NCBI GenBank assembly: GCA_949524905.1
Contig: CATINC010000004.1
Location: forward strand, 177,840-241,839
DNA from: Opitutia bacterium UBA7350
GTDB lineage: Bacteria > Verrucomicrobiota > Verrucomicrobiia > Opitutales > Coraliomargaritaceae
DNA: 64,000 bases
Direction of reading: 5' to 3'
The notes beneath the pieces are model-generated. The model made no database searches. It saw nothing but the letters and a program-made list of their open reading frames with translations, and was not told the origin of the DNA. Position 1 is the first letter of the stretch; the number at the start of each line of letters is the position of its first letter. The translations under genes and the position numbers were made by a program. Positions 17,362 through 19,929 of the stretch are shown piece by piece.

Positions 17362-17727
17362 CTATTTGGCGTCAACGAGACGTTTCTCTTTTACTTGATT
17401 AGCAGCCTTACCGATACGATCGCGTAGGTAGTACATCCGTGCACGCATAGTCACAGATTCGCGGTCGATCTCAACCTTTTCGATGGAAGGACTGTGAACG
17501 GGAAAAACTTTCTCTACACCGACGCCAGAAGCAATACGACGCACCGTGAAAGTCTCGCCTACCCCGGCACCCTTGCGACATATAATGATACCAGCAAAAA
17601 CCTGAATACGGGTCTTACTGCCTTCTTTCACCTTGAGATGTACCTTTACACCGTCGCCTACTTTGAAATTCGCACGGTCGTCTTTTAATTGATCTTTTGT
17701 AATGTCTTCGAGAATTGCTTGGCTCAT
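17362..17727 (-). CDS. rplS: 50S ribosomal protein L19
   Basis: Protein of 121 residues with the L19 pattern FKVGDGVKVHLKVKEGSKTRIQ (split: FKVGDGVKVHLKV and GSKTRIQVFAGIIICRKG), VRRIASGVGVEKVFPVHSP and YYLRDRIGKAA. It sits at the 30S-50S interface. Its ATG (17727-17725) overlaps the TGA of trmD (17726-17724). It is the last gene of the rpsP-trmD-rplS set. Confidence 0.97.
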   Translation of the reverse strand: MSQAILEDITKDQLKDDRANFKVGDGVKVHLKVKEGSKTRIQVFAGIIICRKGAGVGETFTVRRIASGVGVEKVFPVHSPSIEKVEIDRESVTMRARMYYLRDRIGKAANQVKEKRLVDAK

Positions 17728-18413
17728 ATTATTTCGTCCTTTTCTAGTAGATCCGGTCGCATTGACCGTGTTTTTAAAATTTGTTGTTCACGACGCCATT
17801 TAGCAATGGCAGCATGATCTCCAGAGAGAAGAACCTCTGGCACTTGCATCCCCCGGTACTCCGGTGGACGCGTATACTGAGGAAAGCCGAGAAAGTTGTC
17901 CATGAAGGATTCCTCCGTCAAGGATTTTTCATCTCCTAAAAATCCAGGCACAAATCGACTGACACTATCAATCAATACCGCAGCGGCTAAAGTACCATTG
18001 GTTAAAACGTAATCCCCAACACTGATTTCTCGGTCCACAACGGCATCACGCACACGCTGATCCACTCCTTCGTAGTGACCACTCAATAAAATTAAATGCT
18101 TCTCCGCGGCCAATGTCCTAGAAATTTGGCTGGTCAAAGGCTCCCCATCTGGAGCCAGATAGATCACCTTACTTTCAGGACGTCGCAATGCCGTCACTCC
18201 CTCAAAGATCGGCTCAGGTTTCATTACCATGCCTGCACCTCCACCATATGGCATCTCATCCGTTTTGCGATGCTTATCGGTCGCCCATCGACGCAGGCAG
18301 TGCGCTTGCGCTCGTATCAAGCCCGCAGCTTGCGCTCGACCCAGCATGCTGGATTCTAAAAAACCCTCCGCCATTTCTGGGAAGAGGGTTAAAATATCAA
18401 ACTCAATTTTCAT
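17724..18413 (-). CDS. trmD: tRNA (guanine-N1)-methyltransferase
   Basis: SPOUT methyltransferase that makes m1G37 in tRNA, preventing +1 frameshifts. It has 229 residues with the family motifs DILTLFPEM, DEMPYGGGAGMVMKPEPI, the knot segments LLSGHYEGVDQRV and ISVGDYVLTNGTLAA, and the C-terminal PPEYRGMQVPEVLLSGDHA. It starts 36 bases after rpsP and ends overlapping rplS. The rimM gene that normally sits between rpsP and trmD is missing here. Confidence 0.97.
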   Translation of the reverse strand: MKIEFDILTLFPEMAEGFLESSMLGRAQAAGLIRAQAHCLRRWATDKHRKTDEMPYGGGAGMVMKPEPIFEGVTALRRPESKVIYLAPDGEPLTSQISRTLAAEKHLILLSGHYEGVDQRVRDAVVDREISVGDYVLTNGTLAAAVLIDSVSRFVPGFLGDEKSLTEESFMDNFLGFPQYTRPPEYRGMQVPEVLLSGDHAAIAKWRREQQILKTRSMRPDLLEKDEII

Positions 18414-18449: not shown

Positions 18450-19100
18450 CTAAACGTCTTCTTCTTTAGTTTCTGCTTCGGCAACTTTAGCCGCAGGAGC
18501 TTCTTTATTAGCATGCGATCCATCGCATTTGCCATCAGAATCTTCAGTTTTACCACAAGCGCAATCTGGACCCGCAGACGGAGCCTCAGTAGAAACTTCA
18601 TGTGTTTCTCCAGCTTCAGGAGCAGCAGCCTCAACGGTTTCTTCAGCAGGTGCCTCATTGGCCCCTTCAACAGCTTCAGGTGCAGCAGCCTCAACGGTTT
18701 CCTCAGCAGGCGCCTCATTGGCTCCTTCAACAGCTTCAGAAGCAGCAGCCTCAACGGTTTCCTCAGCAGGCGTCTCAATCGTTTCCTTAACCAGTTCAGG
18801 CTCAGGAGCAGGCTTTGCTTTTGGCTTTGGTGACTCAACAGGCGGGTCTACATGCCCACGACGAGCACGGCGAATCAAACTAGCAGCCGTGTCACTAGCT
18901 TTAGCTCCGACCGATTTCCAATAGTCAATGCGCTCTAGTTTGAGCAGTAATTGCTCTTCTGGTTTTACAGCCTGTGGTTCGTAGGTGCCCACGACCTCGA
19001 CGAAACGACCATCGCGACGAGCTGCCGCTTCGGTTACAACCATGCGATAAAAAGGATGATGGCTTGCGCCATGACGTTGGAGACGGATTTTAAGTGCCAT
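18450..19100 (-). CDS. rpsP: 30S ribosomal protein S16 with long repeat tail and CDGSH-like motif
   Basis: Residues 1-85 are standard S16 (MALKIRLQRHGASHHPFYRM, VEVVGTYEP, DYWKSVGAKASDTAASLIRR), needed for 30S assembly. The protein then continues to 216 residues, more than twice the usual length. Residues about 90-165 are Ala/Glu/Pro-rich and hold three copies of a 20-residue unit (PAEETVEAAAPEAVEGANEA). Residues 180-196 read CACGKTEDSDGKCDGSH, with Cys180, Cys182, Cys192 and His196 in the order of the CDGSH [2Fe-2S] motif, but the loop before the last Cys is one residue longer than the usual pattern. The end is again acidic. The tail is probably disordered; cluster binding is inference. Confidence 0.95.
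   Translation of the reverse strand: MALKIRLQRHGASHHPFYRMVVTEAAARRDGRFVEVVGTYEPQAVKPEEQLLLKLERIDYWKSVGAKASDTAASLIRRARRGHVDPPVESPKPKAKPAPEPELVKETIETPAEETVEAAASEAVEGANEAPAEETVEAAAPEAVEGANEAPAEETVEAAAPEAGETHEVSTEAPSAGPDCACGKTEDSDGKCDGSHANKEAPAAKVAEAETKEEDV
18611..18775 (-). repeat. 60-bp in-frame tandem repeat inside rpsP
   Basis: Three copies with an exact 60-base period (about 18611-18660 partial, 18661-18720, 18721-18775), differing at only a few positions. Each copy encodes 20 residues of the acidic S16 tail, so copy number could vary without loss of frame. The near identity at DNA level suggests recent duplication. Confidence 0.95.
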
Positions 19101-19626: not shown

Positions 19627-19668
19627 TTCTCGGGTTGCAAAATTTCAAGTTGTCACTTGTTTCGTTAC

Positions 19669-19929
19669 ATGGCTAAAATCATTTTCAAACTTTCTAATAT
19701 GGTATTAGAATGGTCCCCCTCAGAAGATAACATCCTAGAGCTAGCAGAAGCAAGCGGCTTAAACCTTTCTTTTGGTTGCCGGATGGGCAACTGCACTTCA
19801 TGTCAACAAAAGATCTTGTCGGGTGAAGTCGCATATGAAAATGGACATACCGGTGAACCCGATGAGGAGCACGCTCTACTGTGCTGCTGCCAACCCAAGG
19901 GAGAAGCAGATGTTGTGATTGAGGCGTAG
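19669..19929 (+). CDS. 2Fe-2S ferredoxin
   Basis: Plant-type [2Fe-2S] ferredoxin domain protein of 86 residues. Cys37, Cys42 and Cys45 ([11 protein letters not shown]) and one of the consecutive Cys72-74 (LLCCCQP) give the CX4CX2C...C cluster ligands. The three adjacent Cys are unusual, and which one binds is not clear. It should act as an electron carrier, but no partner oxidoreductase is adjacent. Such short domains also occur as the C-terminal part of reductases; here the gene stands alone. ATG 19669 was chosen over a start four codons upstream. Confidence 0.9.

Follow-up and report, generated by a model that had tools for sequence, protein, structure and literature searches.

A CDGSH-like Cys/His motif on the tail of a bacterial ribosomal protein S16 and similar motifs in other bacteria and phages

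The S16 gene and its tail

The window, a 64,000-nucleotide stretch of the Opitutia bacterium UBA7350 genome, carries an rpsP gene whose product, ribosomal protein bS16, is extended at its C terminus. The features at the locus, all on the minus strand, are as follows (window coordinates).

18450 to 19100, minus strand: rpsP, bS16 with C-terminal extension, 216 aa; open reading frame with an ATG start
18855 to 19100, minus strand: S16 core, residues 1-82, without Cys; profile matches
18567 to 18854, minus strand: linker, residues 83-178, acidic and without Cys
18513 to 18563, minus strand: mini-CDGSH motif, CACGKTEDSDGKCDGSH, Cys180 to His196; conserved in L004 and L005
18453 to 18512, minus strand: short charged C-terminal end, residues 197-216 (20 residues)
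17724 to 18413, minus strand: trmD, ordinary operon partner downstream of rpsP; PF01746
17362 to 17727, minus strand: rplS (L19), ordinary operon partner downstream of rpsP; PF01245

The core matches both Pfam Ribosomal_S16 (E 4e-21, residues 9-69) and TIGR00002 (E 3e-23, residues 3-79), and rpsP is the sole S16 gene found in the genome. The full-length S16 domain, the single copy, and the downstream trmD and rplS genes identify the protein as bS16; no rimM was seen between rpsP and the trmD/rplS pair. The linker comprises ~96 residues, is rich in Glu, Ala, and Pro, and has a net charge of -21; AlphaFold assigns it a pLDDT of about 40 and no secondary structure. It also contains a 60-bp tandem repeat (18611-18777; 2.8 copies, 93% match) and, therefore, its length probably varies. 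The original prediction described a normal S16 with an added tail, in which Cys180, Cys182, Cys192, and His196 follow the ligand order of mitoNEET-type domains with one extra residue before the third Cys. This description is accurate: the three Cys residues are the only ones in the protein, His196 follows, and the arrangement Cx1Cx9CDGSH exceeds the CDGSH consensus by one residue.

A gene for a [2Fe-2S] ferredoxin (window 19657-19929, plus strand; Pfam Fer2, E 3.3e-11) lies divergent from rpsP. As a partner of the S16 motif it was rejected, because it occupies the same place in several family members whose S16 lacks the motif.

Among 57 related genomes searched, 52 yielded an S16. The genus is a small marine one of the Verrucomicrobiota. 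The motif is present in the S16 of all three of its species, the other two copies being CACGKMEDANGKCDGSH and CGCGKTEDLNGKCDGSH, and none of the three has lost a Cys or His of the set, a loss that had been proposed as a check on close relatives that keep the tail. The proposed search of S16 proteins for C-terminal CDGSH-like motifs returned this genus only; a pattern search of ~40 genomes of the family gave no S16 motif outside it. In the other genera of the family, S16 has either a short tail or a long tail without the motif, and these tails are variable, low-complexity sequence. Elsewhere in the family S16 has either no such tail or one lacking the motif, and the tail is therefore dispensable for S16. 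Moreover, although several relatives have tailed S16s, the motif is limited to one genus, and the simplest history is therefore that it was probably gained once, at the base of the genus.

Within the genus, the linker and the C-terminal end have diverged while the motif is kept. Between the window S16 and that of G002 the linker is 45% identical and the motif segment 86%, and the synonymous sites of the tail are near or beyond saturation among the species of the genus. These data bear on the suggestion that a tail tolerant of insertions gained the motif by accident and without function. The restriction to one genus and the variable tails elsewhere in the family would be expected on that account; retention in three of three species, despite a diverged linker and end and near-saturated synonymous sites, makes it improbable. 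A frameshift or assembly artefact was likewise rejected, given that the frame is the same in three genomes and that the indels are whole codons. The same holds for a chance motif, since it is kept across the genus near synonymous saturation and other, unrelated proteins carry the 17-residue pattern too.

The motif in other bacteria and in viral contigs

In a sample of the phylum, the motif occurs in this genus and in one Opitutaceae-type genome only, and in a sample of the order it occurs in this genus and in several genomes of one other family. A scan of 84,980 genomes with a pattern requiring nine residues between the second and third Cys returned 46 stretches, which were translated. The recurring form, here called the mini-motif, is CxCGx[TS]x[DN]xxGxCDG[ST]H, and in bacteria it is found in five settings. 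Two of these are free proteins of 24-63 aa (Opitutaceae, Flavobacteriales, and Brevibacillus): single-copy proteins 24-46 aa long, exemplified by MAKQCACGKTQNAQGNCDGSHNNK in Brevibacillus and MSNYKCSCGKTKNVNGNCDGSHKS in Marinoscillum, and tandem proteins 52-63 aa long, which are those of Opitutaceae. No conserved gene neighbours were found beside the free Opitutaceae proteins. In two further settings the mini-motif sits at one end of a larger protein, namely at the N terminus of Flavobacteriales YceI-family proteins (Pfam YceI), ahead of a hydrophobic segment, and at the C terminus of RicT/YaaT proteins of marine Flavobacteriales (NF041131, E 1.8e-76), after a basic Lys-rich linker. In Bacillus, RicT is established as an Fe-S protein (PMC6751060). 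The fifth setting is S16, confined to this genus. The loci of the two end-tagged families, and those of the phage proteins described below, are as follows.

YceI with mini-motif, Flavobacteriales: L109:5452-6105, L112:394-1068, L085, L100, L104, L121, L123, L127
RicT/YaaT with C-terminal mini-motif tag: L084:2554-3732, L094, L097, L105, L110, L126, L129
Phage mini-motif proteins, 22-45 aa: L155-L234 and further viral loci

Judged by eye from the sequence, genes for a pirin-like protein and for a regulator of the HxlR type are among the neighbours of the YceI mini-motif genes.

In a collection of viral sequences, at least 120 contigs carry the mini-motif; a control pattern with the spacing shifted by one base gave 14 matches in the whole collection. 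The open reading frame is shorter than 80 aa in 103 of the 120 matches listed, very often 22-45 aa. Among the longer viral hosts are a protein whose N-terminal segment resembles a prohead protease inhibitor (phrog_8608, E 8.6e-5) and a 588-residue open reading frame in which the mini-motif is C-terminal. Among the 120 contigs listed, many of which are related so that the counts are not independent, a holin-family gene lies ~800 bp downstream in 57, an endolysin-family gene ~400 bp downstream in 31, and a gene for a small membrane protein just upstream in 44. In four loci (L157, L160, L179, and L204) the mini-motif is near the N terminus of phage open reading frames of 56-72 aa that have a Cys-rich second half (VCKGVCKIT...CGTKCC).

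The viral copies also show which positions are kept. Searches in which Cys2, position 17, and His18 were left free, or Cys14, position 17, and His18, returned the same 120 listed loci and none new; the Cys/His ligand set is kept in 120 of 120 matches listed, the other features of the motif being required. When positions 7, 9, 12, and 17 were left free, the matches listed comprised 90 unique strings, with Thr/Ser at position 7 in 85, Gly at position 12 in 82, and Ser/Thr at position 17 in 87.

The phage copy L270, CACGKTEDPNGACDGSHAKKEE, matches the window motif at 14 of 17 positions, equal to the S16s of the other species. This similarity, together with the number of viral contigs and the holin and endolysin genes near many of them, raises the possibility that S16 took its motif from a phage-type micro-protein and that the tail binds, or competes for, the partner of the phage micro-proteins. 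However, the motif is too short for proof of descent, Opitutaceae chromosomes also carry free copies and tandem proteins, and the Flavobacteriales copy L113 is equally close (14 of 17). We consider a phage-related tag to be a remote prospect.

Neither PHROGs nor NCBIfam has a family for the mini-motif micro-proteins scanned. Annotated phage records yielded no tblastn match to a phage copy of 26 aa, the query length probably being limiting, and no paper linking CDGSH to bacterial S16 or to phage micro-proteins was found in the open-licence literature. The mini-motif family of bacteria and phages is apparently unnamed and undescribed. Judged by its range of hosts, the mini-motif is a mobile module, and the wider family is more surprising than the S16 case.

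Comparison with CDGSH domains and known metal sites

The CDGSH consensus is C-X-C-X2-(S/T)-X3-P-X-C-D-G-(S/A/T)-H (PMC5859297). The Pro at position 11 is universally conserved in CDGSH domains (mitoNEET/CISD; PF09360), and the cluster module is held to need a beta-sandwich dimerization module (PMC3174974). The S16 motif has the CDGSH ligand order C-x-C...C-D-G-(S/A/T)-H, and it keeps the consensus residues apart from Pro11 and, in one species, Thr7: Ser/Thr is at position 7 in two of the three S16s (Met in G001) and in 17 of the 18 motif copies in the order. The Gly after the second Cys of the mini-motif is also seen in many bacterial CDGSH proteins.

In contrast, the spacer between the second and third Cys is nine residues in all S16 copies and eight in CDGSH domains (the bacterial and viral sets were chosen for the nine-residue spacer by the search pattern itself). 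A Gly-containing [DN]-x-x-G segment stands in place of Pro11, and hydrophobic residue 1 is lacking. The N-strand, the lid-proline [GP(Phi)X(Phi)] strand, and the beta-sandwich are all missing from the AlphaFold models of the tail and of the tandem protein, both of low confidence (pLDDT 54 for the tandem protein, with no confident fold; the S16 tail likewise). The mini-motif can be a protein of only 22 residues, and the free copies of 22-25 aa are too short for the N-strand and the lid-proline strand. Moreover, Pfam zf-CDGSH (PF09360) does not match S16 or its tail, the best score among the tandem mini-proteins is 14.7 bits, where the cut-off is 29.5, and no protein in the genome of the window is above the cut-off. 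On the features tested, the S16 motif is not a member of the CDGSH domain family; the Pfam non-match and the missing features rule out a standard CDGSH domain. The mitoNEET-type domain of the original prediction thus survives in its ligand order and in the conservation of ligand type, and not in spacing, Pro11, N-strand, lid-proline, or profile match.

The motif nevertheless looks like a cut-down CDGSH loop. The best PDB matches to a profile of the tandem mini-proteins are the CDGSH proteins 3tbn (E 0.0018) and 3tbm (E 0.3), each alignment leaving a single-residue gap where the motif has its additional residue. Common descent with CDGSH is plausible, the motif being too short for proof, and we regard the knuckle as probably CDGSH-derived.

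Metal sites are known in bacterial small-subunit proteins, e.g., the [4Fe-4S] cluster of Thermus thermophilus S4 and the Zn site of bS18 (PMC11791143), but these are other proteins with other motifs and without an added tail knuckle. Closer in position is the [2Fe-2S] cluster of the human mitoribosome, for which mS25 provides a CxCx7C motif and bS16m one Cys, whose place is taken by His in some fish (PMC11791143). The human case is a precedent for a [2Fe-2S] cluster at an S16 protein. The original statement that no such ribosomal protein was known has to be narrowed on this account, though the human arrangement is very different. The human cluster is shared by two proteins, is required for mitoribosome assembly, and uses a non-CDGSH motif, and tethering by a long linker is not described for it. 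In its full form, the original prediction is of a mitoNEET-type [2Fe-2S] site through which the ribosome would sense iron or redox conditions and tune translation; it would draw on this precedent, on the shared ligand order with its Ser/Thr7 and Asp-Gly-Ser/Thr, and on the CDGSH proteins being the best PDB matches. Given the nine-residue spacer, the lack of Pro11, N-strand, and lid-Pro, and the zf-CDGSH non-match, we consider such a site unlikely.

The C-terminal tail of SecA offers a second comparison. Its ligands are of the CxCx8(C/H)C type, unlike the CxCx9Cx3H of the S16 motif, and Pfam scans of S16, its tail, and the mini-motif proteins gave no match to SEC-C. The build is alike, with a flexible linker and a Cys-rich knuckle of ~21 residues at the end of a ribosome-related protein; the SecA domain, a metal-binding unit of 21 residues, makes contact with ribosomes and may carry iron inside the cell (PMC6620043). 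The S16 knuckle could accordingly hold zinc (or mononuclear iron) and act as a protein-docking tag of the SEC-C/SecA-tail kind rather than as a redox cofactor site, and the minimal size of the free-standing copies would suit this role. The SEC-C non-match and the conserved Thr7 and Asp-Gly-Ser/Thr, which fit a CDGSH loop and which a plain Zn site does not need, render it doubtful.

A possible role for the tail

The explanation that we lean toward, with modest confidence, is that the S16 of this genus carries a Cys3His metal-binding knuckle of ~18 residues on a flexible acidic tether of ~96 residues. The knuckle would be an abbreviated CDGSH cluster loop whose conserved Pro segment has given way to [DN]-x-x-G, probably a turn, and it would belong to a mobile family made up of free proteins of 22-63 residues, in bacteria and phages, and of end-tags. 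Counting for this explanation are the RicT host, a known Fe-S protein, the SUF Fe-S assembly machinery present in the genus (including the genome of the window), and the SecA-tail-like build; counting against it are the Met in place of Thr7 in one of three S16s, the low-confidence AlphaFold models, and the absent beta-sandwich dimerization module.

Metal binding best accounts for the motif because the three Cys and the His are conserved together within a unit that can be as short as 22 residues, and we regard it as likely that the motif binds a metal. The free-standing copies of 22-25 aa suggest that it is a self-sufficient unit. As to which metal, the retention of Thr/Ser7 and Asp-Gly-Ser/Thr as in CDGSH favors an Fe-S loop, and an Fe-S reading of the S16 tail is plausible, whereas the missing beta-sandwich points to a labile or dimer-dependent cluster, or to zinc. 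A labile [2Fe-2S] cluster may be what the motif holds, with a likelihood below even; zinc or mononuclear iron is slightly less likely. The tail might then be an accessory tag for binding that responds to metal or redox state and extends from the 30S body, with a role separate from that of S16 in assembly.

A broader and speculative proposal is that undescribed, self-folding Fe-S or zinc micro-domains of ~20 residues ("mini-CDGSH") circulate in marine phages and bacteria, commonly near phage lysis genes, and that one was captured, in a single genus, onto a ribosomal protein to give a metal-responsive ribosome arm. Should the motif hold iron or an Fe-S cluster, this genus would have a bacterial ribosome with an added iron or redox arm, and the free copies would rank with the smallest metal-cluster proteins known from nature. 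Failing that, the micro-proteins still form a testable, apparently unnamed family present in many phages, and the free copies of 22-25 residues are accessible by peptide synthesis.
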